Translations under genes and position numbers: made by a program | Notes under the pieces: generated by a model | Databases searched by the model: none | The model's input: the letters and a program-made list of their open reading frames with translations, nothing else | What the model was told of the DNA's origin: nothing | From: a virus | Direction: 5' to 3' (one strand) | DNA: 23,204 nucleotides | Virus record (IMG/VR): IMGVR_UViG_3300033149_002609 | Span: 1-23,204 of that record | Shown: positions 3-21,551 of the stretch, piece by piece | Position numbering within the stretch: the first letter of the stretch is position 1 | Layout: every line of letters starts with the position of its first letter

Positions 3-1805
3 GTTAATCTGGATAGTACTCTTGATAGTGGTATATCAACGTTAAACAGTTTTGTTGATGGCGGAACAACTTACGTCTATGTCTTCTCAACAGAAGATGG
101 TAACATCTCAAACTCTGAGTGGAATGCTTACTATATTGATCAGGGTGCAGCTTCCCCATTTACAGCTGGCAACTGGACAGAAGATACAATAGCTGCACAA
201 ACAGAGTACTCTGTCGACGCAGATAACCACTGTGATTCAGTAGCAGATGATAGTAACAATATTTATATTGTTATGAAGACAGATGCTGTAACTACTGGTG
301 AAACTCTGATTGGGTTGCTGAAACGAACCGCTGGTGGTATATATACAAGTCATACTATTGTAACAATGCCTGCAGCAGCAGCAGATAGTAGAACACGACC
401 ATGTATTGCTTATGATAAAACTAACAGTAAAATTTATATAGCTTACTCAAAAGAAAATACAGGCGACTTAGATGGTTGGTACGTTAGTGCTGACATATCT
501 GATTTAGATACATGGTTATCAGAGACTAACTTATTCGATATATCCGGGAAAGACTTTAATAATATTAGATCCCCGCAGCAGGATTTTCAGGGTACGGACT
601 CTACGGGTATCTTATTTGTTGCTGCTCAAGATGCGGTAGCGGGTGATGACGATGATGATGTATACCACAGCTTAGTAACGATAGCAGCAGCCGGTATAAG
701 TATTGAAGTCCCAACAACTGACTTAGTTTTATCAACAACTACCCCCGCTGTAATAATATCAGCAAGCCCAAGTTTTGAGGTCCCTGTTGTAAATCTCACC
801 TTATCAACTGTTGCTCCTTCAGTTGGGACAGGTGTGGGTGTACCAGCAGTGGACCTCACCCTATCTACAACGGCACCGACGGCAACTATTTCCGATCATA
901 TAGCTATCGAGGCCCCAACGGTTGATTTAGTTTTATCTACATCAACACCAACAGTAACTGTTACCGATCACGTAGATGTTGAAGTACCAGTTACCGGTTT
1001 AGTATTATCTACAACGGTACCGACGGTGCCTGTTACCGATCACGTAGATGTTGAAGTTCCCGTTACCAGTTTAATTTTATCCACAACGGCACCAACGGCG
1101 GCGGTATCAGGTACCGTGGGTATCGAAGTACCGACAGTTAATTTAGTACTATCAACAGTAGCGCCGATAGTAACCATTACGAATCACGTAGATATCGAAG
1201 TACCCGTCACTAATTTAGTTTTATCGACAGTAGCGCCGATAGTCAATATCGGTATAAACACCGAAATCCCAACAGTTAATTTAGTATTATCAACGACAGT
1301 ACCGACGATAGCCGTTACCAACCATATAGATATTGAAGTACCGGTTATTGATTTAGTATTATCAACGACAGTGCCGACGGTAGCCGTTACCAACCATATA
1401 GATATTGAAGTACCGGTTACCAATTTAATTTTATCTGCAACCGCACCAACAGTTGATATTGGTATTAATTTAGATATCACTGTCCCAGTTGCGACCCTTA
1501 ATATTTCAACAACTGCACCCACTATTTCAATACCGGCCAATGTTAGTATTGAAGTTCCACGAGTTGATTTACTACTTTCAACAGTTGCTCCGGTAATCGA
1601 TGAAACTACTACAGTAAGTTTGGCTATACCAACAGTTGATTTAATATTAAGCACCGTCGCACCCGTGGTATCGGCAGTAACATTGGCATCACCAGCTAAG
1701 AGTTTATCATCTGAAGAACCGGGCACTGGGTTTGCATCTAAAGAACCGGGTACTGGATTCATATCCAATCGATTAGATCGTACAAAAAATACAGGATTAT
1801 CATAA
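3..1805 (+). CDS. Propeller-like structural protein with tandem VP..LxLST..AP repeats (5' end cut by window)
   Basis: The frame is open from base 3, so the gene starts left of the window and the ATG at 273 is internal. About 600 codons are visible. The N-terminal 230 residues are rich in Tyr, Ser, Asp and Asn with strand-like motifs such as NNIYIVM and SKIYIAYSKEN, which resemble sialidase/BNR-type propeller blades. From base 702 follow 14 repeats of the form VP-x3-L-x-LST-x-AP-x-V, about 24 residues apart. The tail contains EEPGTGF and KEPGTGF. The gene ends in TAATG, so it is coupled to the next gene. Its place just before the head-tail completion genes suggests a head-associated fibre or decoration protein, but a tail appendage is also possible. 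The structural role is inferred from context; the repeat is seen directly. No signal peptide can be judged because the start is missing. Confidence 0.75.
   Translation, partial: VNLDSTLDSGISTLNSFVDGGTTYVYVFSTEDGNISNSEWNAYYIDQGAASPFTAGNWTEDTIAAQTEYSVDADNHCDSVADDSNNIYIVMKTDAVTTGETLIGLLKRTAGGIYTSHTIVTMPAAAADSRTRPCIAYDKTNSKIYIAYSKENTGDLDGWYVSADISDLDTWLSETNLFDISGKDFNNIRSPQQDFQGTDSTGILFVAAQDAVAGDDDDDVYHSLVTIAAAGISIEVPTTDLVLSTTTPAVIISASPSFEVPVVNLTLSTVAPSVGTGVGVPAVDLTLSTTAPTATISDHIAIEAPTVDLVLSTSTPTVTVTDHVDVEVPVTGLVLSTTVPTVPVTDHVDVEVPVTSLILSTTAPTAAVSGTVGIEVPTVNLVLSTVAPIVTITNHVDIEVPVTNLVLSTVAPIVNIGINTEIPTVNLVLSTTVPTIAVTNHIDIEVPVIDLVLSTTVPTVAVTNHIDIEVPVTNLILSATAPTVDIGINLDITVPVATLNISTTAPTISIPANVSIEVPRVDLLLSTVAPVIDETTTVSLAIPTVDLILSTVAPVVSAVTLASPAKSLSSEEPGTGFASKEPGTGFISNRLDRTKNTGLS
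702..1670 (+). repeat. 14 tandem coding repeats, consensus VP-x3-L-x-LST-x-AP-x-V
   Basis: Fourteen imperfect units occur in one frame, for example VPVTNLVLSTVAPIV and IPTVDLILSTVAPVV, joined by linkers such as TVTDHVDVE. Spacing is mostly 24 residues (72 nt). Some neighbours are nearly identical in DNA: 959-985 matches 1031-1057 exactly, and 1281-1347 matches 1353-1419 with two mismatches. This indicates recent tandem duplication by recombination or slippage. The alternating hydrophobic pattern suggests a short beta-hairpin or Ig-like unit. The same motif recurs at the C-termini of the proteins at 18304 and 18636. Confidence 0.9.
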
Positions 1806-2167
1806 TGACCGCTATCTATATAACACAACAAATAATCGGCGCGTACCTTAAGGGTGAGATCCCACAAGCCGTACAGGTAACTTTTAAGGATGACGCAGGG
1901 ACCGTTTTGGATTTATCAGGATTCACTGCCCAATTTGAGATAATTAGAATTGATGGTGGAACTGATCCCGGAAATCTTGGTCAGGGAACACCATCCATAC
2001 CAACACCCCTTTCTGGCTTAACTCAATATGTATGGCATGCAAATGATCTATTGACAGTCGGGATGTACCGAGGTATAATGTGGGTTGGGGATGGTACAAA
2101 TCGATATGGCTCTGAATTTTTTGAGTGGTTTGTCCGAGATTCATTAACTACAGTACCGAGTATTTAA
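1805..2167 (+). CDS. Small Ig-like phage structural protein, BppU N-terminal-like
   Basis: This 120-residue protein starts at an ATG that shares one base with the previous stop (TAATG), so it is probably translationally coupled. The pattern 'QVTFKDDAGTVLDLSGFTAQFEI ... YVWHANDLLTVGMYRGIMWV ... SEFFEWFVRDSL' (parts of the protein) fits the Ig-like beta-sandwich seen in N-terminal domains of phage baseplate upper proteins and related decoration proteins. It has no TM segment or catalytic motif. Its position between the repeat protein and the head-closure gene suggests it is a partner or adaptor of the repeat protein on the virion. The fold is a pattern match by eye and the role is inferred. Confidence 0.55.
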   Translation: MTAIYITQQIIGAYLKGEIPQAVQVTFKDDAGTVLDLSGFTAQFEIIRIDGGTDPGNLGQGTPSIPTPLSGLTQYVWHANDLLTVGMYRGIMWVGDGTNRYGSEFFEWFVRDSLTTVPSI

Positions 2168-2169
2168 AA

Positions 2170-2499
2170 ATGGCTGTTAGCGATTTCCTAGATATGATGC
2201 CAGCTACTATTGTGCACAGGCCATTAACCAGTCGGGATGAATATAATGTTCCCACTTATGGTGACCCCACTAGTTACCCCGCTAGAATCGTCCATAAAGA
2301 TACAATAATCCGTGGCTCTGATGGCTCTGAACTTGTATCTAGGCTTCAATGTTGGGTAGGTGGTATACCATCTATGGGTCCTGAAGATAGTATAACTTTA
2401 CCCAATGGCACTGCACCTCCGATATTTAATGTTGAAAAATTCACTGATGAAGGTGGTGACCACCATGTTAAAATATTCTTCGGTCAGGAGGTAATATGA
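2170..2499 (+). CDS. Putative head closure / head-tail joining protein
   Basis: This is a 109-residue protein. The preferred start is the ATG at 2170 (MAVSDFLDMMPATI), just after the stop of the previous gene. The longer frame from 2125 would overlap the upstream gene and adds an atypical leader. The pattern 'MMPATIVHRP...DEYNVPTYGDPTSYPARI...GSELVSR...ITLPNGTAPPI' is typical of small beta-barrel head-completion (stopper) proteins of siphophages. Such proteins close the connector after packaging and receive the tail. It lies directly before an HK97 gp10-like gene and a tail terminator, the usual order. Its stop overlaps the next ATG by four bases. The family assignment rests on pattern and synteny. 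Confidence 0.65.
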   Translation: MAVSDFLDMMPATIVHRPLTSRDEYNVPTYGDPTSYPARIVHKDTIIRGSDGSELVSRLQCWVGGIPSMGPEDSITLPNGTAPPIFNVEKFTDEGGDHHVKIFFGQEVI

Positions 2500-2882
2500 C
2501 AACTATATCTATGAATATCAAGGGTATAGGTAAGATTCAATCTCAGATAAAAAAATACGGTAGAATTGCTGAGGTAGCCCTTGCTAAATCTTTAAAAGAA
2601 GAGGCTAATGGTATTTTACAACAAAGTAAAGAATTAGTACCTGTTGATACTGGTGCATTGAGAGATTCAGGCAAAGTTACTGGGCCAATCAATAATGTTA
2701 TTTCTATCCAATTCGGCGGCGGGAATGTGGGTTATGCAGCCGCTGTTCATGAGATAATTGATGCCTTCCATGCTGGTGGTATGGCTAAATTTTTGGAAAT
2801 ACCAGCTAGAAAAGCCATACCCGGTATGAGCAGACGAATTGCAAAAGATATTAAAATAGCCACAAAGAGTCTTAAAAGATGA
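2496..2882 (+). CDS. HK97 gp10-like head-tail connector / tail completion protein
   Basis: This 128-residue protein has the hallmark of the HK97 gp10 family: an N-terminal helix (SQIKKYGRIAEVALAKSLKE), then 'LVPVDTGALRDSGKV', a beta region, and 'VGYAAAVHE' leading to a basic C-terminal helix. The family sits at the head-tail interface of siphophages and is needed for joining or completing the tail. The start is ATG at 2496 with a strong AGGAGG four bases upstream and an ATGA overlap with the preceding stop. The stop overlaps the start of the next gene in the same way. Confidence 0.85.
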   Translation: MTTISMNIKGIGKIQSQIKKYGRIAEVALAKSLKEEANGILQQSKELVPVDTGALRDSGKVTGPINNVISIQFGGGNVGYAAAVHEIIDAFHAGGMAKFLEIPARKAIPGMSRRIAKDIKIATKSLKR

Positions 2883-3262
2883 GTATATTGGATGATATCG
2901 GCGATAAACTAATAGCTGATGGTGTGGTCGGGGGTGTTACCGATTGGGTATTAGGTAAATCATACATGCCACCAACCCCTGATGATGTGATCGCATTGTT
3001 CGAGACTGGGGGTGATATCCCCGATCAGACCCCCGGAACTAAATATGAATACCCAACTTTTCAAGTTAGGGTCCGTGGCGGTAAATTTGGTTATGAGGCT
3101 GCTAGGATTAAAATACAGGAAGTGTTTGATAGTTTGAATGATTCCACTGTATCAGGGTATATATACGTTTTTCCTTTACAATCTGGTCCCATACCATTGG
3201 GTTATGACCGAGAAGACAACAGACCGGAGTTATCGTGGAACTTCGCAACGATGAAAGGGTAA
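2879..3262 (+). CDS. Tail terminator / phage minor capsid protein family
   Basis: This 127-residue protein contains 'DDVIALFETGGDIPD' and 'YPTFQVRVRGGKFGYEAAR' (residues about 38-82). This is the signature of the phage minor-capsid family related to tail terminators (PF12691-like). Tail terminators cap the tail tube at its correct length and bind the head connector. The start is at an ATGA overlap with the gp10-like gene. In related phages the major tail protein follows directly; here nine sugar-related genes intervene. The first of these starts 28 bases inside this gene. Confidence 0.75.
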   Translation: MSILDDIGDKLIADGVVGGVTDWVLGKSYMPPTPDDVIALFETGGDIPDQTPGTKYEYPTFQVRVRGGKFGYEAARIKIQEVFDSLNDSTVSGYIYVFPLQSGPIPLGYDREDNRPELSWNFATMKG

Positions 3263-3828
3263 TCTATATAGCCGGGGGTGGTCCGTCTTTAAAAGGTTAT
3301 AATTGGAACCTTTTGAAGGATAAAAGAATTATCGCTGTTAATAGATCATACGAAGTAATACCGTGGGCTGAAGTAGTGTACTTTACAGACAAGAGATTTT
3401 TTGATTGGCATAAAGATGGTCTAATAAAGCATAATGGCGTTAAAATAACTGGTGATAAGCATATTGATCACCCCGACGTGCAAAATTATAGATTAACCGG
3501 GTGCAAAGGAATTGATTTAGGTCATATGCGGTTAAAGCACGGTAATAATTCTGGTTATGCAGCTATGAATCTAGCAGTGCATTTGGGTGCTAGAATAATA
3601 GTTTTACTTGGGTTCGATATGAAATTTAGTGGTGAGGAATCCCATTGGCATAATGGTTACCCAGTGGCTAGTAGACCCAAACAATATAAGAATATGTTAT
3701 CGTGTTTTAAATCAATAGCTGTGGGATTGAATAACAGAGGGATTACGGTATTTAATGCATGTGAAGACTCAGAATTAAAAGAATTTTATAAAACGCCTTT
3801 AGATAAGGCACACTTAGTAAGGGGCTAG
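3235..3828 (+). CDS. DUF115/sialyltransferase-like Rossmann protein, first gene of sugar cassette
   Basis: This 197-residue protein starts at GTG 3235 with a GGAG five bases upstream, overlapping the tail terminator by 28 bases. The N-terminal 'VIYIAGGGPSL' and then 'IIAVNRSYEVIPWAEVVYFTD' look like the nucleotide-sugar binding start of DUF115 (MptE/Maf-like) proteins. Further on are 'HGNNSGYAAMNLAVHLGA' and 'IIVLLGFDMKFS...HWHNGYP'. Related proteins occur in many phages without known function, and in bacteria some members act in flagellin glycosylation. I infer a glycosyl- or sialyl-transfer role because of the following glycosyltransferases. The reaction and substrate are unknown. It has no TM segment and is probably cytoplasmic. 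The stop lies 6 bases before the next start. Confidence 0.7.
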   Translation: MELRNDERVIYIAGGGPSLKGYNWNLLKDKRIIAVNRSYEVIPWAEVVYFTDKRFFDWHKDGLIKHNGVKITGDKHIDHPDVQNYRLTGCKGIDLGHMRLKHGNNSGYAAMNLAVHLGARIIVLLGFDMKFSGEESHWHNGYPVASRPKQYKNMLSCFKSIAVGLNNRGITVFNACEDSELKEFYKTPLDKAHLVRG

Positions 3829-3834
3829 GTTAAT

Positions 3835-4353
3835 ATGTTAATACAGCAATATATCGAAATGCACAGTAATCCAAAGCGGTTTCCCGGATTCTCTATAAAA
3901 GAACATATATCAGAGATAACTAGTTTAGTGGAAAAGCATGCAGTATTTAACTTATTAGATTATGGCTGTGGTAAAGGCTATCAGTACCTAGCAAAACGGT
4001 ACCATGAATCCTGGGGTATACTTCCACATTGTTACGACCCCGGTGTAACATTTTTGAATATCAAACCGGAAGGAACATTCGGTGGCGTTATCTGCACAGA
4101 TGTTCTTGAGCACATCCCCGCAGAAGAAATAAAATCATTCCTAACTGAATTGTTTAGTTATGCAGATAAATTTATTTTTCTATCCATCGCCACTTTCCCG
4201 GCTAGGAAATCCCTGCCCAATGGCACTAATTGCCATGTTACGGTTGAAAATAAGGAATGGTGGTTAAAGCAGATTAAGCCATTCGTTACAAATTTGGATT
4301 GTGTAGTAAGTTTCCGCCATCTCGATAATAAATTTGAGTTGGTAGAGTTATGA
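3835..4353 (+). CDS. Class I SAM-dependent methyltransferase
   Basis: This 172-residue protein carries the Rossmann motif I 'LLDYGCGKG' (residues 40-48), an acidic loop 'YDPG' (67-70), and the post-motif 'CTDVLEHI' (87-94) typical of Methyltransf_11/23-like enzymes. It should transfer a methyl group from SAM to a small molecule or glycan. DNA methylation is unlikely because there is no DPPY or PC motif. An AAGGGG lies upstream of the ATG, and the stop overlaps the next ATG (ATGA). Its position among glycosyltransferases suggests methylation of a sugar residue, for example capping a chain. The acceptor is inference. Confidence 0.8.
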   Translation: MLIQQYIEMHSNPKRFPGFSIKEHISEITSLVEKHAVFNLLDYGCGKGYQYLAKRYHESWGILPHCYDPGVTFLNIKPEGTFGGVICTDVLEHIPAEEIKSFLTELFSYADKFIFLSIATFPARKSLPNGTNCHVTVENKEWWLKQIKPFVTNLDCVVSFRHLDNKFELVEL

Positions 4354-5162
4354 AATCGGCGCATTGCTTGGTTAAAAAGAAATCCGAATACCCTTGGCAG
4401 GGTATACATAGTGGGATTCGATCACAGGGGTATGATTTAAGTGGGGGAACATTACCGGCAGATTTGTTAGTAACTTGGACCCCGTGGAACAATTCAATAG
4501 CTCATCGCGCCGGTGAGAATCAAAAGAAATATGGTAAAGATTGGGTAGTTTTTGAAAATGGCTATCTACCTTTAAGTAATAATGTTAGGTATTATTGCGC
4601 CGGTTTAAATGGTTTTAATGGCCATGGTGACCATAAAATCCACAATATAGATGAATCGCGGTTGGGTAAGTTAAATATTGATATAAAAGATTGGACCACT
4701 AAAGGTGAATATATATTAATAGTATCTCAATTTGGTCACAGGGACACTAGATATTCAATGCCGATTGATTGGCCCGATACCATAATCAAAAAATTACGTG
4801 AATATACTGATCGCCCTATAATCTTTAAATCTAAAGCCGGGAAACGTAGAGTTCCATCTAAATCCTATCTTAATGTGACGGTTGTTGATAATAGTGAATC
4901 CCTTAGTTCACTTATAAAAAGTGCTTGGGCGGTTGTTGTGTGGAACAGTAAAGCGGCTGTTAAATCCCTTATTGAGGGTGTGCCAATAGTGGTAGATGCT
5001 CCTGTTGCTATTTCTAAATTTATGTGCACTTCGATCGAATCCATAGAGACACCTTATCGACCGGAAGATGCAGACAGATTATACTTTTTTAATTGGTTAG
5101 CAAATGCACAATGGAGTGAACAAGAAATAGCTACCGGTAAGCCATTTGAGCAGCTGCTATGA
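4350..5162 (+). CDS. Putative GT-B-like glycosyltransferase, paralogue 1 of 4
   Basis: This 270-residue protein is the first of four tandem relatives. It shares with them an N-terminal segment ending in 'WVVFENGYL' (about 66-74), a central 'GEYILIVSQFGHRDT' (about 118-132), 'LREYTDRPIIFK' (about 149-160), 'VVVWNSKAAVKSLIEGVPIV' (about 194-213), and a C-terminal 'NAQWSEQEIATGKPF'. A Ser/His-Ser-x(4)-A-x(3)-G-(I/V)-P segment near the C-terminus resembles the donor-binding part of GT-B enzymes and capsule-type transferases, so glycosyl transfer is the best guess. No reaction is known. It has ATGA overlaps on both sides and no TM segment. Among the four, this copy alone has Asn-Ser-Lys instead of (H/N)-(S/G)-(N/T) in the core loop, so its donor may differ. 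Confidence 0.6.
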   Translation: MKSAHCLVKKKSEYPWQGIHSGIRSQGYDLSGGTLPADLLVTWTPWNNSIAHRAGENQKKYGKDWVVFENGYLPLSNNVRYYCAGLNGFNGHGDHKIHNIDESRLGKLNIDIKDWTTKGEYILIVSQFGHRDTRYSMPIDWPDTIIKKLREYTDRPIIFKSKAGKRRVPSKSYLNVTVVDNSESLSSLIKSAWAVVVWNSKAAVKSLIEGVPIVVDAPVAISKFMCTSIESIETPYRPEDADRLYFFNWLANAQWSEQEIATGKPFEQLL

Positions 5163-5995
5163 CTATTAATTATTACACAGATGGTGGGAAAAGGGCCGGT
5201 GTATTAGAAAAAGCCATGATAAATGGTTCCAGATTAGCTGGGTATAGATGTGGTGCGATACCCAAGGAAAGATATACAGGGGTTAAAACAAGGATTGCAG
5301 CTCTGTATGGTTTATGGGGGAATTCCAGAGATATTATACATGAATATGTTGATGCTGGTAAAAAATCTATATTCTTTGATCTAGGTTATTGGGGTAGGCA
5401 TGACGGCGGTAGATTAAAGGGCTACCACCGTATAGCTATTGATGGTTACCATGCTAAATTTGATAATACCGATTGTAGTCCTGTTAGGTTCAATAAGTTT
5501 AAAATAAAAACCAAATCTTTTGATAATTCAGGTGAATATATCCTCCTTTGTGGGCAATCAGCAAAAGCAGCTTGGGTATATAACCTAAGTCCTGAAGAAT
5601 GGGAAAAACAAACTATAGAAGAGATAAGAAAGTACACTGATAGACCTATCTGGTATGTGCCGAAACCATCATGGCTTGATAAAAAACCTATTTCAGGGAC
5701 AATATATTGCGATGGCCCTGTTGAGCAATATTTGGGTGATTGTAAAGCAGTCGTCACACATCACAGTAATTCTGGTGTACATGCATTAGCGTTGGGTAAA
5801 CCAGTCTTTACACAAGAAGGCATATCAAAATCACTGGTGGGTGAATTAGATTTATCGAAAATTGAATCCCCAATGATCCCCAGTGAAGAAGAGCGCGATA
5901 TGTTTTTATTTAACGTTGCACAATGGCAATGGTCTGTTGATGAAATTAGTGGTGGTATTATGCTTAGATGTTTAAAAAGTAGGGGGTTATTATGA
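5159..5995 (+). CDS. Putative GT-B-like glycosyltransferase, paralogue 2 of 4
   Basis: This 278-residue protein aligns by eye with its neighbours. It has 'SIFFDLGYWGRHDGG' (GY motif, about 69-83), 'GEYILLCGQSAKAAW' (about 125-139), 'EEIRKYTDRPIWYVPK' (about 153-168), 'AVVTHHSNSGVHALALGKPV' (about 197-216), 'RDMFLFNVAQWQWSVDEISG' near the end. The Gln-Trp-x(3)-Glu-x(3)-Gly motif at the C-terminus marks all four copies. HHSNSGV followed by GKPV fits the donor phosphate-binding loop of GT-B-like transferases. It has ATGA overlaps at both ends, so it should be made together with its paralogues. Substrates are unknown. Confidence 0.62.
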   Translation: MTINYYTDGGKRAGVLEKAMINGSRLAGYRCGAIPKERYTGVKTRIAALYGLWGNSRDIIHEYVDAGKKSIFFDLGYWGRHDGGRLKGYHRIAIDGYHAKFDNTDCSPVRFNKFKIKTKSFDNSGEYILLCGQSAKAAWVYNLSPEEWEKQTIEEIRKYTDRPIWYVPKPSWLDKKPISGTIYCDGPVEQYLGDCKAVVTHHSNSGVHALALGKPVFTQEGISKSLVGELDLSKIESPMIPSEEERDMFLFNVAQWQWSVDEISGGIMLRCLKSRGLL

Positions 5996-6870
5996 GATTG
6001 GTTTTTTATGCAGCGGATAAAGAGCGGGAAGGCCTATTAGCTCTAGCCTTTAATGAAGGCGTTATGCACCATGATGGGGATGTCGCTGTTGTAAAATCAA
6101 CAACAGACTATGAATTACCTGAGATGGGAACTGATGTTGCAGTTGTAATAGGGGTTAAGGGTAAAAGTCGTCAAATTATAGATGATCATAAAGCTATGGG
6201 TAAAAAGATAATTTATATTGATAAAGGTTATTTCAGAATCGCTAATACACATCCAGATAGGTTAAGTAGATCATTATATTATAAGACTAGTGTCGATAAT
6301 TTTCAGCCATTGGATTATTTAATGGATTTAAAAGTTAGTGGTGATCGGTGGTCTAAATTAAGTAAAAAATTCGGGTTAAAACTAAAACCGTGGCAGTTAA
6401 AGGGTTCAAATGTTATTTGGTTAGGCCCATCCCAAAAATATTGCACATTCCATGGACTGGGGGATGCTACTGAATTTTCAGAATCGAATATTAAAATTCT
6501 ATTGAAAAAGACTGGTAAGGACGTGGTTTATCGACCTAAACATAGCTGGGGGGATGCAACACCTATAAAAGGTACTAGGTTTTCAAGACCCCCAATTAAA
6601 ATAGAAGATGAATTTAAGGATGCATATGCTCTAGCGACACACGGTAGTAATATGTCAGCTGAAGCCATTGTTGCCGGTATCCCTATTATTGCATTCGGCC
6701 CAGCGATAACTAGACCGATAGCTTCAACGGAACAAGATAAATTAAATAAAATATCATTCCCTGATTATGATTTAAGGTTAGATTGGTTAAGAAAAATTTC
6801 TTATTGCCAATGGACATTAGCTGAAATGGCATCCGGACTAATGTGGTCTAATACTAGGCACCTAATATGA
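5992..6870 (+). CDS. Putative GT-B-like glycosyltransferase, paralogue 3 of 4
   Basis: At 292 residues this is the longest of the four tandem copies. It shows 'VAVVIGVKGKSRQIIDDH', 'IIYIDKGYFRI' (about 73-83), 'VSGDRWSKLSKKFGLKLKPW', 'NVIWLGPSQKYCTFHG', 'DVVYRPKHSWGD', 'ALATHGSNMSAEAIVAGIPI' and 'SYCQWTLAEMASGLMW' at the C-terminus. THGSNMSAEA-x(3)-GIPI is the clearest GT-B-like donor loop of the set and resembles capsule-polysaccharide transferases. The extra 15-20 residues relative to copies 1 and 2 lie in the middle (VSGDRW segment), which copy 4 also has, so copies 3 and 4 look closer to each other. It has ATGA overlaps on both sides. Confidence 0.65.
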   Translation: MRLVFYAADKEREGLLALAFNEGVMHHDGDVAVVKSTTDYELPEMGTDVAVVIGVKGKSRQIIDDHKAMGKKIIYIDKGYFRIANTHPDRLSRSLYYKTSVDNFQPLDYLMDLKVSGDRWSKLSKKFGLKLKPWQLKGSNVIWLGPSQKYCTFHGLGDATEFSESNIKILLKKTGKDVVYRPKHSWGDATPIKGTRFSRPPIKIEDEFKDAYALATHGSNMSAEAIVAGIPIIAFGPAITRPIASTEQDKLNKISFPDYDLRLDWLRKISYCQWTLAEMASGLMWSNTRHLI

Positions 6871-7691
6871 AAATTATAACATTCTTACCGAATAATATGA
6901 TAAAGGAGCAAGTTGACACTCTTATTGCTTTCAGCAATGGTTTAATTGACCTAGGTTATAAAGTTTCGATAAATTCACATGATAATGTAGAATTGTGTGA
7001 TGTAGCTGTAGTATTCGGTTGGAACAAACCATACCATAAAGAAATAGAACGCGTAATTAAAGAATTCGGTGGTCGTGTTCTAGTATTAAGTTATGGTTTA
7101 TTCAATAGACCGAAGTACTGGACCGCCGGGTGGGATAATTTAAGTGGTCGCGCCGATTACGTTAATGAAAATTCACCCTCCGATCGATGGGATGAGATGG
7201 GTGCGGGGTTGAAGCCTTGGAAATCAACGGGGGAACACATTTTAGTTACTTGCCAAGTTCCAACGGATGGTTCCGTATATGACATTGATATTTTTCAATG
7301 GAGTCAGGATACTATAGATTTAGCTAATGAAATAGTGGATTACCCTATTAGATTTAGACCGCATCCACTCGCTACTAATATAACACCTGATATGGAAGGC
7401 TCTATAAGGTCGGAAGCATCATTTGAAGAGGATTTATTAAATGCTAAGGCTATAATAACGTACAATAGTACTTCCAGTAGCATGGCTATATTTGAGGGTA
7501 TCCCACTATTTGCAATGGATCGTGGCTCAATGGCATGGGATGTAGCCAACAAAGACTTAAAAGACTTAAATAACCCAAAAATGTTTGACAGGGGGCAATG
7601 GTCCCATAATCTTGGGTATTGTCAATGGACATTAGACGAGTTTAAAGATGGCACGGCTTGGGACCATCTAAAAAGGGGAGTATTAACATGA
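6867..7691 (+). CDS. Putative GT-B-like glycosyltransferase, paralogue 4 of 4
   Basis: This 274-residue protein shares with the three upstream genes 'DVAVVFGWNKPYHKEIER', 'VLVLSYGLFNRPKYW', 'SPSDRWDEMGAGLKPW', 'GEHILVTCQVPTDGS', 'YPIRFRPHPLAT', 'AIITYNSTSSSMAIFEGIPL' and 'GYCQWTLDEFKDGTAWDHL'. RFRPHP followed about 45 residues later by a Ser/Thr-rich loop and GIP is a pattern known from CDP-glycerol and capsule transferases, which supports glycosyl or glycerophosphate transfer. The start is at an ATGA overlap, and the stop overlaps the ATG of the next gene in the same way. The true start is ATG 6867, since the preceding codons belong to copy 3. Confidence 0.65.
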   Translation: MKIITFLPNNMIKEQVDTLIAFSNGLIDLGYKVSINSHDNVELCDVAVVFGWNKPYHKEIERVIKEFGGRVLVLSYGLFNRPKYWTAGWDNLSGRADYVNENSPSDRWDEMGAGLKPWKSTGEHILVTCQVPTDGSVYDIDIFQWSQDTIDLANEIVDYPIRFRPHPLATNITPDMEGSIRSEASFEEDLLNAKAIITYNSTSSSMAIFEGIPLFAMDRGSMAWDVANKDLKDLNNPKMFDRGQWSHNLGYCQWTLDEFKDGTAWDHLKRGVLT

Positions 7692-8362
7692 TTAAAATTT
7701 TTATCGGGTATGATCGTGCAGAAGAAGTGGCATATCATGTTTTATGCCATAGTATACAACGTAAAACTAAAGTACCTATTTCTATAACTCCAATTGAGTT
7801 GCGACAATTAAGCAATTTAGTAGATCGGCCAAGAGAACCAGAACAGAGCAATGAATTTACATTCACTAGGTGGCTAGTGCCATATCTATGTAATTATGAA
7901 GGTTATGCTATCTTCATGGATTGTGACATGCTTCTACGTGCGGATATAAATGAATTATGGGAACTCCGGGATGATGTTTACCCTATTCAGTGCATTAAAC
8001 ACAACCACGTCCCTAAAGAGGATACCAAATTTCTAGGTACTATGCAAACGAAATATGATCGCAAAAATTGGTCCAGTGTTATGATATTCAATAACGCTAG
8101 GTGTAAAGCCCTCACACCTGAATACATAAATACTGCTTCCAGACTTGATCTACATCAATTTAAATGGTTAAATGGGGAGGTTATCGGAAGTTTACCAAAA
8201 GAGTATAACCATTTAGTCGGTTATGACTTCCCAAATAATAAAGCTAAAATAGCCCATTTTACTCTCGGTGGTCCATACTTTAGAGAGTATAGGGGTTGCG
8301 AATTTTCAGATGAATGGTTTAGGGAGCACAGGTCTATGCTTCATTGTGATCAATTACAATGA
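7688..8362 (+). CDS. GT8-like (GT-A) glycosyltransferase
   Basis: This 224-residue protein starts at ATG 7688, which forms an ATGA overlap with the previous stop; the frame extends upstream but only through coding sequence of that gene. It begins 'MIKIFIGYDRAEEVAYHVL', continues with 'SNEFTFTRWLVPYL' (54-67) and has the metal/nucleotide-binding DxD motif in 'AIFMDCDMLL' (D78, D80). A late 'IAHFTLGGPYF' supplies the His expected for a retaining GT8-like enzyme. Such enzymes use a UDP- or GDP-sugar with a divalent metal in the cytoplasm. The acceptor is unknown, and the context suggests the same glycan as the neighbouring transferases. Confidence 0.75.
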   Translation: MIKIFIGYDRAEEVAYHVLCHSIQRKTKVPISITPIELRQLSNLVDRPREPEQSNEFTFTRWLVPYLCNYEGYAIFMDCDMLLRADINELWELRDDVYPIQCIKHNHVPKEDTKFLGTMQTKYDRKNWSSVMIFNNARCKALTPEYINTASRLDLHQFKWLNGEVIGSLPKEYNHLVGYDFPNNKAKIAHFTLGGPYFREYRGCEFSDEWFREHRSMLHCDQLQ

Positions 8363-9162
8363 ATTACACAGTCGTCACAAGCTTCAGTGAAAAGGGTTTT
8401 CATGAATATGGTCGCCGATTCATAGAGACTTTCGAGCAATTCTGGCCCCCCGAAGTATCCCTTATAATATACCATGAGGGGTCGGACGACCCCATTATAC
8501 TTCGACACCACAACGTAGACTTGATAAAATATGTCAAGAACTGCTATACTTTTTTGGAGAAATATTCAGGTAACCCATTGTTTAATGGGGCCTCAATTAA
8601 TCGGCCCCTACCGTGGAAAAAGAAATGCATAATGGAAGGTTATAATTACAGATTCGATATGGTAAAGTTTGCTCGAAAGGTATTTGCCATTGAGGATGCA
8701 GCATCTATCAATAAAACCGGGAAAATGTTCTGGGTGGATGCCGATGTATTAACTTTTGCTAAAGTCTCCATTAACTTTCTAAATAGCCTTCTACCGGATG
8801 ATGTAGCCTTAAGTTTCTTACACCGCCCCGATTCATACAGCGAATGTGGTTTTGTTGGATATAATTTAGACCACCCAGCCTGCCCGTCTTTTATCTCTGA
8901 GTTTGCTGGTGTATATAAAGACGGCAGGGTTATAGATTTCCCCGAATGGCATGATTCGTATATATTCGATAAAATTAAGGATTCCAAAAATATTCCGGGT
9001 TATAGCATACCTTCGCCTGTGGATCGGGGTCATATCTTTATTAATAGCATTCTGGGCAGTGTTATGGACCATTTAAAGGGTGATAGGAAACAATCTGGTA
9101 AATCTAATGATGTAGATTTAACAACGGAACATGAGCATGAATATTGGCAGGAGAGAGCATGA
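8359..9162 (+). CDS. Putative GT-A glycosyltransferase with DxD motif
   Basis: This 267-residue protein starts 'MNYTVVTSFSEKGFHEYG', has 'YRFDMVKFARKVFAI' (about 97-111), a DxD motif in 'MFWVDADVLTF' (D127, D129), and 'ECGFVGYNL' (about 162-170). These follow the order of a GT-A fold: donor-binding strand, helix, metal motif, acceptor loop. A late 'DHLKGDRKQSGKS' is a basic conserved-looking tail motif. It has ATGA overlaps with both neighbours. Specificity is unknown. It is not clearly related to the GT8-like gene before it beyond the shared fold. Confidence 0.65.
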   Translation: MNYTVVTSFSEKGFHEYGRRFIETFEQFWPPEVSLIIYHEGSDDPIILRHHNVDLIKYVKNCYTFLEKYSGNPLFNGASINRPLPWKKKCIMEGYNYRFDMVKFARKVFAIEDAASINKTGKMFWVDADVLTFAKVSINFLNSLLPDDVALSFLHRPDSYSECGFVGYNLDHPACPSFISEFAGVYKDGRVIDFPEWHDSYIFDKIKDSKNIPGYSIPSPVDRGHIFINSILGSVMDHLKGDRKQSGKSNDVDLTTEHEHEYWQERA

Positions 9163-9797
9163 AGCAGCATGGTGGTTTATGGTTACCCGATAGCGATCAA
9201 TATTTTGGTGAAATATTTGAAAGAGAGGGTGGTTTTCAAATAGATCGTCTTAAGATAGCCCTATCTTACGTAACGTCATGGGATTATGCTATAGATGGCG
9301 GTGCTCACGTAGGAACGTGGTCAATCGAGATGGCTAAGCAATTTAATCATGTTTTATCATTTGAACCGGCACCAGATACGTTTAAATGTTTGTGCAGTAA
9401 TACAAAAGAATTTCCGAATGTAGAACAATTTAATGAAGCATTGGGTGATCGCCAAGGGCTTGTAAATTCAATGGATGATATAACTAGGCCGGGTAATACT
9501 GGTTCCCGATTTGTTGAGCAAAATTCCAATGGTAAAATCCCGATGGATAGTATTGATAATTTAGATTTACCCTCATTAGGTTTTTTAAAGTTGGATTTGG
9601 AGGGTGCTGAGTACTTGGCATTAAAAGGGGCGGAGGGAACGATATGTGAACATAAGCCCGTGGTTTTTGTTGAAATAAAAAAAGGGATGGCAGAAAGATT
9701 TAATAGCGATATGTATGCGCCGTTAAACTTTTTGAAGGAGCTTGGTGCAAAAGAAGTCGATCGTATTAAAAGCGATTATATTTATATGTTTGTTTAA
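9159..9797 (+). CDS. FkbM family SAM-dependent methyltransferase
   Basis: This 212-residue protein starts at ATG 9159, overlapping the previous stop (ATGA), with AGGAGAG upstream; an in-frame start at 9144 would only add five residues inside the upstream gene. It carries the FkbM SAM-binding motif 'AIDGGAHVGTWSIEMA' (44-59), 'SFEPAP' (67-72), and the second motif 'FLKLDLEGAEYLALKGA' (142-158), all typical of Methyltransf_21. FkbM enzymes O-methylate sugars or polyketides. As the last gene of the sugar cassette it probably methylates a glycan. The stop is 23 bases before the major tail protein gene, with no terminator or clear promoter between. Confidence 0.85.
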   Translation: MKQHGGLWLPDSDQYFGEIFEREGGFQIDRLKIALSYVTSWDYAIDGGAHVGTWSIEMAKQFNHVLSFEPAPDTFKCLCSNTKEFPNVEQFNEALGDRQGLVNSMDDITRPGNTGSRFVEQNSNGKIPMDSIDNLDLPSLGFLKLDLEGAEYLALKGAEGTICEHKPVVFVEIKKGMAERFNSDMYAPLNFLKELGAKEVDRIKSDYIYMFV

Positions 9798-9820: not shown

Positions 9821-10234
9821 ATGGCAGCTAGTAGAGGACGTAGTATTCTATTGAAAATCAGTGATGGTACCTCACCGGGTGCATTTACTTCTATCGCCGG
9901 GTTGCGGTCTAAAACCATCACTATTAATAACGAAACTGTTGATATAACCACAAGTGATGATGCCCCGTGGCGTCAATTGCTAGGTAATACTGGTATTCGC
10001 TCCGTATCGATGAGTGGTTCTGGTGTATTTCAAGATGATGCCGCTGTGAATGATGTCGAAGACTTAGCTATGAATGGCCTAGCGCAAGAATTCCAGATGG
10101 TGTTCGAGAATGGTGATATCATTCAAGGTTTCTTCCAAGTTACATCATTTGAGTACGGTGGTGAACATACCGCTGAACAAACTTATAGTGTATCATTTGA
10201 AAGTTCGGCGAATGTAACGTTGATTCGGGCTTAA
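9821..10234 (+). CDS. Major tail (tube) protein, TP901-1 type
   Basis: This 137-residue protein contains 'AGLRSKTITINNETVDITTSD' (partly), 'SVSMSGSGVFQDDAA', 'QMVFENGDIIQGFFQVTSFE' and 'GGEHTAEQTYSVSFESS', the hallmark of the TP901-1 major tail protein family (PF06199). It polymerises as hexameric rings to form the tail tube. A good RBS (AGAGGAA) precedes the ATG. It has a free-standing start, unlike the coupled genes before it, as expected for a protein needed in high amount. A second copy of the domain is fused to a propeller at 13167. Confidence 0.9.
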   Translation: MAASRGRSILLKISDGTSPGAFTSIAGLRSKTITINNETVDITTSDDAPWRQLLGNTGIRSVSMSGSGVFQDDAAVNDVEDLAMNGLAQEFQMVFENGDIIQGFFQVTSFEYGGEHTAEQTYSVSFESSANVTLIRA

Positions 10235-13166: not shown

Positions 13167-14468
13167 GTGGCTAAAGGTAGAAATTTATTACTTCAAGTTG
13201 ACATCAGCGGCACGATGACGACTATTGGTGCCTTACGCTCCAAAACTGTTACTATCAACAATGAAACAATAGAAATTACAAATCTTGATTCCAATGACTG
13301 GAGGGAACTTAATCCCAATGGGTTGGGTTCTAGGACAATTTCAGCATCTGGCTCCGGGGTGTTTACTGGTGATGCGGCAGCTAAATTTATTGAGGATGCC
13401 TGTTTTAACAGAGACATCCTGTCAATGCAAATAGTATTTGAAAATAGTGATGTTCTATCCGGTAATTTTGCGGTAACTTCCTTTGTTAGGGGTGGTGAAC
13501 ATACTGCAGAAGAAACTGTATCGATATCATTAGAAGGTTCCGGTGAATTTACAATGACAAGAATACCTATTCATTGTATAGGTGCTCTTACTGCTGATAC
13601 TTGGGTAGCTCAAACTATTGGGGATTTCACTGGTTCCACGAATTATTTGAATGGTATAGCTTCAGATTTAGCGGGACTGTGGGTAGCAGTAAGTAATTTA
13701 GGATACATCGGATCTTCTGTAGATGGTGGTGATTGGGTTACTAGATTTTTTGATGTAACTATATCCATACATGACGTTGAATACGCGAATAGCACATGGG
13801 TAGCTTGTGGGCAAAATCATATCTATTATAGCTCCGATGGATTATCTTGGACTAAGGTGTTTGTTGCATCAGCAGTATTCCACAAAGTTACTTATAATGA
13901 TGGGGTTTGGGTAATTGTCGGAACTGGTAACAATATATATAGATCAACGGATGATGGTGTATCGTGGACACAGGCTACTACTGTCCCAGCGGGGGTCGGT
14001 ACATTTCACAGTATAGCTTATGGCGGTGGTGTGTGGGCTGTGGGTAAAGCTGATGGTACCATTCTTACGTCTACAGATGATGGGGATACTTGGGTAGCGA
14101 ATAGCACTCCGTTTGATGTCATTGCTATCCAAGGGATGGCATATGGCCAAAGTAAGTTTGTAGCTGCTAATGGTAATGGTCAAATTGGGTCTTCATCTAA
14201 TGGGGTCGATTGGGTGATCGACGGTACTGGGTATGGTTTTGCCAATGACTTGATATTCAGTCCGGTAGGTTTATGGATACTTGCTGGTTTTACTAACGGA
14301 AAAGAATTATACCACTCTACAGATGGAACATCTTGGACTCTGGTAACTGGGGTTTTGGGGGCTACTAATAATGTAGTGTCCGTTGGATTTGATTGTGCTG
14401 GGGCTTTATTAGCAGTTGGTTCTTCAGATGCATTCGTTGGTGCAAAAATATCGAAGTCAACAGCTTAA
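13167..14468 (+). CDS. Tail-tube domain fused to a six-bladed beta-propeller
   Basis: This 433-residue protein starts at GTG 13167, two bases after the tape measure stop, with an AGGGG upstream. Residues 1-133 are a paralogue of the major tail protein at 9821; both share 'LRSKT(I/V)TINNET', 'SGSGVF', 'VFEN' and 'F..GGEHTAE'. Residues about 140-433 hold six Asp-box-like S-x-D/N-x-G-x-x-W motifs (SVDGGDW, SSDGLSW, STDDGVSW, STDDGDTW, SSNGVDW, STDGTSW), the sign of a BNR/sialidase-like propeller. Sialidase catalytic residues are not evident, so glycan binding is more likely than cleavage. Its place after the tape measure suggests a special ring of the tail tube or tip displaying propellers, or a minor tube subunit. 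The domain calls are strong; the role is inferred. Confidence 0.8.
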   Translation: MAKGRNLLLQVDISGTMTTIGALRSKTVTINNETIEITNLDSNDWRELNPNGLGSRTISASGSGVFTGDAAAKFIEDACFNRDILSMQIVFENSDVLSGNFAVTSFVRGGEHTAEETVSISLEGSGEFTMTRIPIHCIGALTADTWVAQTIGDFTGSTNYLNGIASDLAGLWVAVSNLGYIGSSVDGGDWVTRFFDVTISIHDVEYANSTWVACGQNHIYYSSDGLSWTKVFVASAVFHKVTYNDGVWVIVGTGNNIYRSTDDGVSWTQATTVPAGVGTFHSIAYGGGVWAVGKADGTILTSTDDGDTWVANSTPFDVIAIQGMAYGQSKFVAANGNGQIGSSSNGVDWVIDGTGYGFANDLIFSPVGLWILAGFTNGKELYHSTDGTSWTLVTGVLGATNNVVSVGFDCAGALLAVGSSDAFVGAKISKSTA

Positions 14469-18303: not shown

Positions 18304-18639
18304 ATGGCTTCAACCAAAATATCAAATCTAACAGCAGTTGTTGCGGTGGCCCTAACTGATGCATTTATAGTTGTTCAGGAAGGCGTCTCAAAGAAAATGA
18401 CAATCGATCAAATCCGCACACTTGATGCTGTGACTATATCAGGTTTGGGTGATGAAGCCACATATCAATGGCAATTAGCAATCGTCACTGATGATGTGGA
18501 TGGTCCCGGTGTTGATAATCGGTCTATTGTTTATAGTGATGGTGTAGACTGGCGTCGAATGTCAGATGGGACTATCCTTGCCTTGAGACCACCCACGGCG
18601 GATGTGATTATTTCAACAACCGCACCGGCAGTGTTATGA
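18304..18639 (+). CDS. Tail fibre-anchor-like protein, paralogue a
   Basis: This 111-residue protein has a strong RBS (AAGGAG) before the ATG. The start 'STKISNLTAVVAVALTDAFI' leads to 'VVQEGVSKKMTIDQIR', a module often found at the N-terminus of phage tail fibres where it packs against the tail tip. It continues with 'YQWQLAIVTDDVDGPG' and 'YSDGVDWRRMSDG', shared with the next gene. The C-terminus 'VIISTTAPAVL' is one unit of the repeat seen 14 times in the first gene. I infer a small virion subunit with a repeat-derived tail. No enzymatic motif is seen. Its stop overlaps the next start (ATGA). Confidence 0.6.
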   Translation: MASTKISNLTAVVAVALTDAFIVVQEGVSKKMTIDQIRTLDAVTISGLGDEATYQWQLAIVTDDVDGPGVDNRSIVYSDGVDWRRMSDGTILALRPPTADVIISTTAPAVL

Positions 18640-19028
18640 CAGCTACTAAAATATCAAATTTACCAGCTGTTGCAACGCCTGAGTTTACCGATGAATTTGC
18701 TATTGTTGATATTTCAGCGGATGAGACTAAAAAGGCAACCCTGGGTATTGTTAGGGCAAAACCAACATACTCATGGGCGAATTTACCTGATGTAGGTACA
18801 TACCAATGGCAATTAATTATCGTGTCCGACAACGTCAACTCTCCTTTAGCTTATAGTGATGGTGCCGATTGGAGATATGTTAGTGACGGTAGTTTGGTTA
18901 GAATGGAAGATATACCATCGGGTAGTTTAGTAATCATCACTATGGCACCCTCAGCTATAGTCGATTTAACGATTGAAGTACCTATAACTAGTCTAGTATT
19001 AACTACAACAGCACCAACAGTAGTATAA
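18636..19028 (+). CDS. Tail fibre-anchor-like protein, paralogue b
   Basis: This 130-residue protein is a tandem paralogue of the gene at 18304: 'TATKISNLPAVATPEFTDEF', '...SADETKKATLGIVR', 'YQWQLIIVSDNVNSP', 'YSDGADWRYVSDGSLV'. The C-terminus holds about one and a half copies of the repeat (LVIITMAPSAIV, then VPITSLVLTTTAPTVV). It starts at an ATGA overlap. The shared repeat suggests that these proteins and the large repeat protein at the left edge use the same fold, perhaps to bind one another or a common partner. Function is unknown, and the virion role is inferred from context. Confidence 0.6.
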   Translation: MTATKISNLPAVATPEFTDEFAIVDISADETKKATLGIVRAKPTYSWANLPDVGTYQWQLIIVSDNVNSPLAYSDGADWRYVSDGSLVRMEDIPSGSLVIITMAPSAIVDLTIEVPITSLVLTTTAPTVV

Positions 19029-20600: not shown

Positions 20601-20823
20601 TATCTTTTAGAGTGTAATTAACTTTCATTATTTTATCAATGCCAGTGATAACCAGTACCAAATTTTTCTGATTATCTAATTCGGTACCTTTTCGCTGGCC
20701 TTTATAGTGATTCCCCCACATATCGGTAATTTCATAATACCACCAACCATCAACTTCATAAAATTTAATTAATTTACATTTCTCTTTTTTAGGGTGGGGG
20801 CCACCTGCTGCTACATTAATCAT
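20545..20823 (-). CDS. Hypothetical protein, 92 aa
   Basis: I do not recognise a family. The start is an ATGA overlap with the stop of the upstream nucleotidyltransferase-cupin gene, which supports that it is real and coupled. The first half is basic and aromatic (PKKEKCKLIKFYEVDGWWYYEI), with a pattern of short beta strands, possibly a small SH3-like barrel. The C-terminal half is helical and acidic (LKDIKQMVSELSSDESQTTIK). It has no TM segment. It overlaps the holin 3' end in convergent orientation by 56 bases. Confidence 0.6.
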   Translation of the reverse strand: MINVAAGGPHPKKEKCKLIKFYEVDGWWYYEITDMWGNHYKGQRKGTELDNQKNLVLVITGIDKIMKVNYTLKDIKQMVSELSSDESQTTIK

Positions 20824-21551
20824 TTAAGTACCCTTCCGTAATTGTCTTCCAATCGTTCTATATCTGTTTCAGATAATTTTTTTCCTAAAGCTATCTCTAT
20901 TACTACTGCTGGTGTATCTTTAAGATTGGTCAATCTATGTACGGATTCAGCATTAACCTTGATAGATTCACCGGCCCACACCTCATGTGTATTATTATCA
21001 ATTTCTGCCATAATAACACCACTTGCTATAACCCATATTTCACTTCGGTGGGAATGTTTCTGCAAACTTATGGATTGTTTCGGATTTATGGTTAAACTTT
21101 TAACCCAATAACCGTTAGCTTGCATAAACAATTGCCAATGACCCCACGGACGTTGTTGCGCGGTTAATTCACTACTCGATGCCCGTTTTACTTCACCGCC
21201 CAATCTAAATAATCTAATAATTCCCAGACTTGCACACAATTCTGATTCCGGTGTATTAGTCTCTATACGGTCACCACCATTACCGAATATATTTGGTCGG
21301 TATTCTTTTATTGCTTCACAAACTGTATCATCCTTATCATCTACCCCAACCACACTATCCACGTAATTGATCGATTCCAATATTTCCCTTCGGTCATCCC
21401 ATGGCATGAATGTGTAACCTTTTTTACGTATTAACCAATCATCACTATTTAGAGCAACTATTACTTTTCCATATACCGCTGCATCTTTTAACAAATCGAG
21501 ATGCCCAACATGGATTGGGTCGAAACCGCCACTAACCATAATAGTTTTCAT
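20820..21551 (-). CDS. Nucleotidyltransferase-cupin fusion (RfaE/TagD-like plus mannose-6-P isomerase type II cupin)
   Basis: This 243-residue two-domain protein has a cytidylyltransferase-like domain at residues 1-130: 'GGFDPIHVGHLDLLKDA' with the HxGH motif and 'VKRASSSEL' for the later signature. The domain joins a nucleotide to a sugar- or polyol-phosphate. Residues about 133-243 form a cupin: 'RPWGHWQLF', 'LQKHSHRSEIWVIASG', 'ESIKVNAESVHRLTN', 'VIEIALGKKLSETDIERLED', as in the C-terminal part of GDP-mannose pyrophosphorylase/phosphomannose isomerase. Metal-ligand-like His residues are kept (KHSHRSE, HRL). It probably makes or processes an activated sugar. The start and stop are both at ATGA overlaps. 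The substrate is unknown; a link to the glycosyltransferases on the other strand is an inference. Confidence 0.8.
   Translation of the reverse strand: MKTIMVSGGFDPIHVGHLDLLKDAAVYGKVIVALNSDDWLIRKKGYTFMPWDDRREILESINYVDSVVGVDDKDDTVCEAIKEYRPNIFGNGGDRIETNTPESELCASLGIIRLFRLGGEVKRASSSELTAQQRPWGHWQLFMQANGYWVKSLTINPKQSISLQKHSHRSEIWVIASGVIMAEIDNNTHEVWAGESIKVNAESVHRLTNLKDTPAVVIEIALGKKLSETDIERLEDNYGRVLK

Follow-up and report, generated by a model that had tools for sequence, protein, structure and literature searches.

What does a long and very regular repeat do at the end of a large viral protein, and on which part of the virion would it sit? The question is raised by the first gene of a virus contig of 23,204 bases (IMG/VR virus record IMGVR_UViG_3300033149_002609, positions 1-23,204), which we analysed as a whole and call the window. 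The gene runs in from the left edge and carries an array of similar units close to its end (Table 1). The initial annotation had seen fourteen units with a period close to 24 residues, placed the protein probably near the head and suggested a stalk or fibre on the capsid or neck.

The repeat itself stands. The first VP of the array starts at 708 and the last APVV ends at 1670; 11 of the 13 spacings between units are 24 residues, one is 20 and one is 22. A strict unit pattern occurs 14 times in the window protein; over 10,000 shuffles it averages 0.0002 occurrences and never exceeds 1. The open frame, the spacings and the shuffles thus bear out the fourteen units and their period.

The array is a repeat at the protein level, because silent-site differences exceed replacement differences between units. 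Over 19 core codons, mean pS is 0.66 and mean pN is 0.32, and pN is smaller than pS in 90 of the 91 pairs of units. Hence, repetition in the window is under protein-level selection. Tandem Repeats Finder reports only parts of the array as DNA repeats (for example, 97% over 1279-1419). The whole array is unlikely to be an assembly artefact, because the units differ from each other and a sibling contig (L007) agrees. Searches with the window repeat protein gave nothing in Pfam, in PHROGs (E up to 1) or among PDB sequences, and NCBIfam gave nothing above its cut-off; neither as a single sequence nor as a profile did the repeat match any PDB sequence.

Table 1. Features of the repeat gene, its downstream neighbours and the additional units in the window.
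Feature	Position	Strand	Remark
C-terminal 600 residues of a large protein	3..1805	+	frame open at the 5' end, start outside the window
End of a roughly 430-residue domain, no Pfam match	3..695	+	L007 residues 375-804
Array of 14 units, [IV].VP...L.LST.AP.V, 24 residues (one 20, one 22)	702..1670	+	
C-terminal tail; EPGTGF motif doubled, last residues RLDRTKNTG	1671..1802	+	
Next gene, 120 aa, Ig/BppU-like by eye	1805..2167	+	
Connector-type protein	2125..2499	+	phrog_16085 (unknown function), E 2.6e-8; phrog_3881 head-tail connector, E 4.7e-4
Neck1 / HK97 gp10-like protein	2496..2882	+	phrog_5, PF04883
Tail terminator	2879..3262	+	PF12691, phrog_2595
Single C-terminal unit of array type, in a 111-aa protein (18304-18639)	18589..18636	+	
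Two C-terminal units of array type, in a 130-aa protein (18636-19028)	about 18912..19025	+	

The sibling contig takes us beyond the left edge, although only in part. It differs from the window protein at 4 of 587 residues and by one 13-residue gap (39 nt), which may be an assembly effect. L007 extends the protein to at least 1161 residues but is itself cut at the left. From the left, it has the last part of a domain that looks lectin-like by eye, then two units, a Laminin_G_3 lectin-fold domain (PF13385, E 8.4e-13), one unit, a domain of about 430 residues, the array and a 44-residue tail. The three extra units between domains lie left of the window edge. Units thus occur both in an array and as spacers between domains. 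The N-terminal part had initially been called propeller-like. This remains unconfirmed: the 430-residue domain (L007 1124-2413) has no Pfam match, and the domain that can be assigned upstream of it is Laminin_G_3.

Of the other repeat proteins, L020 has a nearly identical C-terminal tail and L022 a similar one, while their N-terminal parts differ from that of the window protein. Laminin_G_3 is present in the repeat proteins of L007, L024, L047 and L095; a Pfam scan of ten repeat proteins gave a match in L095 only. Among 70 frames (stop-to-stop, some cut by contig ends), the median number of residues after the last unit is 44.5, with at most 150 in 68 frames, and 40 frames have at least 150 residues ahead of the array. 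L022 and L046 are one whole 24-residue unit apart and differ at none of 948 other residues; the extra unit, whose copies differ by 1 of 72 nt, may reflect assembly collapse. In L018 (3037-6783), units alternate several times with arginine-rich inserts of about 40 residues in a single frame of 1249 residues.

How widespread is the repeat? IMG/VR was searched with a degenerate two-unit DNA pattern; a profile bait made from units was dropped as insufficiently conserved. The pattern gave 56 stretches, L007 and 55 new loci, and an HMM finds the repeat in 52 of these 55. Fifty-two proteins at E < 1e-6 (window, L007 and Gordonia included) reduce to 30 non-redundant ones. The full set, including arrays found beside PHROG_644 (see below), comprises 71 non-redundant proteins and 759 units, with a median of 10 and a maximum of 36 units per protein. 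The unit threshold is passed by chance at about 1 in 2000 shuffled positions, and therefore some units and odd spacings may be false.

Outside IMG/VR, four repeat queries against 50,697 named phage records gave six Gordonia records only and a fifth gave none; these early queries all missed the degenerate units of mycobacteriophages. In bacterial and archaeal genomes, a protein bait led to 225 candidate stretches with no relative among them. A two-unit DNA pattern gave 0 matches in the same genomes, which for one strict pattern is not proof of absence; it recovers 48 of 72 examined repeat loci, 12 of the 48 being window copies. Our literature search found neither the repeat nor its link to PHROG_644 described. 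The repeat is common to many unrelated bacterial viruses.

PHROG_644 is a protein of about 145 residues with no assigned function that recurs beside the array. In sister phages of the window (L073, L074 and L060), its gene precedes the repeat gene by five or six genes, a position that falls outside the window. With PHROG_644 as a bait, the best 80 of 501 relatives were kept and 79 examined, leaving out the already known L037. An array is present in 49 of the 79 loci (50 at a laxer setting), and 30 have none in the stretch examined. Array and PHROG_644 share a strand in 49 of 49 cases, with PHROG_644 upstream in 42. Once eight contigs already in the repeat set are removed, 42 of 71 loci have an array. 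A terminase bait served as a control: its 80 loci contain one array, on the query's own contig, and three more have PHROG_644 alone. The seeds were taken from repeat loci and near-duplicates among the best 80 of 501 were kept, and therefore these fractions overstate the array link for the PHROG_644 family at large.

Mycobacteriophages are an independent test of the pairing. Three of their minor tail proteins (Ogopogo gp23, Courthouse gp38 and Bask21 gp28) contain a degenerate repeat (HMM E 1.7e-4 to 1.4e-3; 0 of 900 shuffles fall under E 0.01). In Ogopogo and Courthouse the units are spaced 24, 20, 22 and 22 residues apart, a result obtained without any demand on spacing. Here, a protein of 315 residues carries a short array of about five degenerate units at its N-terminus, the gene lies at the tail/lysis end of the operon and PHROG_644 is directly downstream. 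The repeat stretch matches 208 phage records, all of them mycobacteriophages, prophage records included; the 40 that were listed are mostly annotated as minor tail or hypothetical protein. PHROG_644 matches 165 mycobacteriophage records, and in 10 of 10 records listed for both the repeat lies about 1 kb upstream of it.

Gordonia phages carry the repeat as well. Gibbles gp37, Kampe gp39 and Orchid gp38 are Orchidvirus minor tail proteins with tandem units on the same skeleton as the window units, and the window protein in turn has the tandem [VI]P...L.L....P units at 24-residue spacing that mark the Orchidvirus type. Gibbles gp37 has 10 units at a spacing of 24, once 25; its last units and C-terminal domain match phrog_7114 and phrog_553 'minor tail protein'. 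A PHROG_644 gene (E 2.1e-26) is directly upstream of the repeat gene. Unlike in the window, the N- and C-terminal domains are of other kinds, and the gene stands between lysin A and lysin B, at the tail/lysis end.

The window gene stands before the neck genes and the tail terminator instead of at the tail/lysis end. Sister phages begin this region with the large terminase (phrog_38), followed by the portal (phrog_113), the major head protein (phrog_1005), a phrog_1732 gene that looks adaptor-like by eye and accessory genes. Next come PHROG_644 and, after another four to five genes, the repeat gene with the 120-aa gene behind it, and then neck proteins and the tail terminator. This order, established with PHROG and Pfam families, supports a head-proximal gene in the window's lineage, as had been supposed. 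The 120-aa gene has no significant profile match in PHROGs or Pfam and adjoins the repeat gene in all 8 loci found for it (few lineages). Among the 55 pattern loci, neighbour genes were inspected at 24, and 20 neighbour proteins from 17 loci were profiled, one locus being the window's sister. Eleven of the 17 have a head, packaging or connector family beside the gene (terminase, portal, scaffold, major head protein or adaptor), one has a tail family (L048) and five have none.

Several other genes in this lineage deserve a mention of their own. Nine glycosyl- or methyltransferase-like genes (by eye) lie between the tail terminator and the tail tube (window 3235-9797), which is unusual in a morphogenesis operon. 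A tail tube-type protein (PF06199, E 2.9e-26) at 13167-14468 has a BNR/Ycf48-like extension (weak, below the cut-off), and by eye 9821-10234 encodes another tail tube-like protein. On the minus strand, 20820-21551 encodes a nucleotidyltransferase fused to a cupin-like sugar-isomerase domain, also by eye. The head module of sister phage L073 includes a radical-SAM-like gene (1912-2856; phrog_14086, E 2.3e-5).

Because the repeat recurs in unrelated bacterial viruses beside a small partner gene, the array is probably the stalk of an adhesive virion fibre, a reading that we think somewhat more probable than otherwise. The stalk or fibre suggested initially gains indirect support from the lectin-fold domain, the array near the C-terminus, PHROG_644 and the virion-type neighbours. 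Phage fibres with repeats and lectin domains are a known kind.

Where such a fibre would be mounted is a separate question. The strongest alternative is a purely tail protein: every carrier would have the stalk attached to its baseplate or tail tip, and in the window's lineage the position on the head side would be no more than an insertion site for accessory genes. The actinophage relatives, minor tail proteins by position and annotation, and the PHROG_644 fold point to the tail. The PHROG_644 model (pLDDT 89.9) has nothing at E 0.001 in a Foldseek search of the PDB. Among PDB chains its best structural match is a T4 baseplate chain (Z 11.9, rmsd 2.7, 128 aligned), from its length presumably gp7, followed by a Bxb1 tail-tip chain (Z 8.6, rmsd 2.5, 101 aligned). 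A511 gp105 (Z 6.8, rmsd 3.8, 107 aligned) and a 7-7-1 tail-fibre entry (Z 4.9) score under 8, where a match may reflect a common arrangement only. In BFVD, the model matches structural proteins of the Agrobacterium phages Atu_ph07 (E 1.1e-6) and 7-7-1 (E 2.9e-6) and, more weakly, tail-collar fibre proteins (E about 5e-3 and weaker). As far as a predicted fold can tell, PHROG_644 therefore pulls towards the tail. The available part of the WIVsmall virion protein list (PMC10453261) yielded no mapping to PHROG_644.

The window adds to this its extra units: the small proteins that carry them adjoin a gene that looks amidase-like by eye, in a tail-fibre position. Against a tail protein in all carriers stand the head-side families at 11 of 17 metagenomic loci and the parallels in phiCbK and Atu_ph07, which are capsid appendages. 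We regard the tail protein as a real possibility that falls short of probable. For the window's lineage, gene order and the phiCbK parallel slightly favour an appendage on the head or neck.

A second alternative sees in the array a flexible linker, for the most part unstructured, whose only role is to tether domains. T, A, V, P and S make up 58% of the arrays, as might be expected of a linker, and the array model has a low pLDDT. We modelled eight window units with AlphaFold2 (29 rows). The structure prediction places three short strands in each unit, at the same place in every unit, but its confidence is low (mean pLDDT 50.8, pTM 0.42). A Foldseek search with the model, relevant also to a possible beta-solenoid, gave nothing significant (best E 0.36, mostly beta-helices). 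Such a weak model would fit an intertwined oligomer and disorder as well.

The spacing of the units tells against the linker. Among the 667 spacings of no more than 30 residues, 24 occurs 416 times, 22 occurs 168 times and 20 occurs 52 times; 640 are even. An even spacing other than 24 is present in 52 of 71 proteins, an odd one in 21. The first DNA pattern required one spacing of 24 and the search therefore favours 24, whereas 22 and 20 are unaffected. The length variation falls between APTV and the next V.VP, and the steps of two are what a beta hairpin losing two residues would allow. A free linker would not be expected to show steps of two residues, fixed L, L, P and V places or selection at the protein level, and the model repeats its strands at one position in each unit; we consider the linker unlikely.

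It is very improbable that the protein is a secreted or cell-surface adhesin of the infected cell: the literature yielded no virion proteomics of a carrier, nor microscopy for a protein with the window-type repeat, but the gene lies inside morphogenesis operons and L020 and L022 have no signal peptide, as judged by eye.

We return to the virion stalk and propose how it may be built. Each 24-residue unit would form two or three short beta strands that probably pair, and the stretch from APTV to V.VP would behave like a hairpin that loses one residue per strand at a time. Units in series would make up the stalk, probably an intertwined homo-oligomer, whose length would change by whole units. Single units would be spacers between N-terminal domains, among them one with the lectin fold of Laminin_G_3. 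The stalk would be fixed or capped either by the C-terminal tail or by PHROG_644, the small partner. The appendage would sit on the head or neck in some lineages and on the tail in others, and would serve attachment to the host or to surfaces.

More broadly, these proteins could form an unnamed, widespread class of appendages, consisting of a lectin or another ligand domain, a beta-repeat stalk and a short tail, with PHROG_644 as anchor or cap, and with head or neck filaments on the phiCbK plan in carriers with the gene in the head module, the window's phage among them. We offer this class tentatively and hold it to be possible but doubtful. If it exists, genes with the PHROG_644 fold mark an appendage operon, and the capsid fibres of 7-7-1 and Atu_ph07 should come from 7-7-1_000107 to 000109 and from gp573-gp576. 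With a repeat that can be recognised and a small gene linked to it, such appendages could be found from sequence. Many structural genes of environmental phages that now lack annotation would gain a meaning, as would a pair of mycobacteriophage genes shared by many cultured phages. Such a repeat also brings the question within reach of experiments on laboratory strains.

Capsid fibres remain little understood; in the case of 7-7-1, the available text of PMC12796354 states that the fibre proteins are unknown, and its authors suggest a link protein as an anchor. One parallel is the head filament of phiCbK. In the accessible text of PMC3556154, gp76 is named the most probable gene for the filament and is described as lying on the head side and as carrying tandem duplications and a ConA-like lectin domain; the same text reports that gp76 was not detected in virions. 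We find that gp75, directly upstream of gp76, is a PHROG_644 protein (E 1.9e-22). Hence gp76 resembles the window-type protein in its lectin-fold domain, its tandem repeats, its head module and PHROG_644 one gene upstream. The window's lineage in turn shares with phiCbK a long head-module repeat protein that includes a lectin-fold domain (L007 and sister-phage order). Unlike the window-type protein, gp76 has 2799 aa and a glycine-rich N-terminal half. The spacings between its C-terminal repeats peak at 22 and 24. By eye these repeats seemed to align with the window repeat, but homology was rejected after HMM, PSSM versus shuffles and hhalign proved negative; a MAFFT alignment of gp76 units is poor.

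Phages 7-7-1 (7-7-1_000107 to 000109) and Atu_ph07 (gp573-gp576) also have a long domain followed by short tandem repeats, with a PHROG_644-like fold nearby. In 7-7-1, 000107 is a 502-aa structural protein, assigned from its length as the BFVD match, and precedes 000109 by two genes; the latter combines a long domain and five repeats of 21 residues. Between them, 000108 (L242 10297-11319) is annotated as structural and has G.W.YP.Y repeats, an autocorrelation peak at 21 and an arginine-rich C-terminus. The cryo-EM paper on 7-7-1 numbers genes differently, and 000107-000109 may be assigned elsewhere there. Small 7-7-1 proteins were considered as PHROG_644 members and rejected (HMM E 4.4 or worse). 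In Atu_ph07, whose appendages appear mainly capsid-associated according to the available text, repeats of 21 residues close both gp575 and gp573; WD40-type matches occur in gp575, one of them (PD40) above the cut-off, and those of gp573 are weaker. From its length gp576 is the BFVD match, and gp574 is a tblastn relative of 7-7-1_000107. All three 7-7-1 genes have relatives in phage Milano, and two of these relatives are annotated as virion-associated; the accessible part of its structure paper mentions no capsid fibre. Further papers behind these comparisons, likewise available in part, are PMC10491603, PMC8310070 and PMC6102473.

Unlike the window repeat, the repeats of 7-7-1 and Atu_ph07 have a period of 21, an unrelated sequence and no HMM match, and we read both cases as parallels of plan, not homology. 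In adenovirus-type triple beta-spiral shafts, short beta repeats with proline build a thin stalk. Shafts of this type have no sequence match to the array in the PDB; by analogy, the array may still work as they do, with short beta repeats and proline forming a thin stalk.
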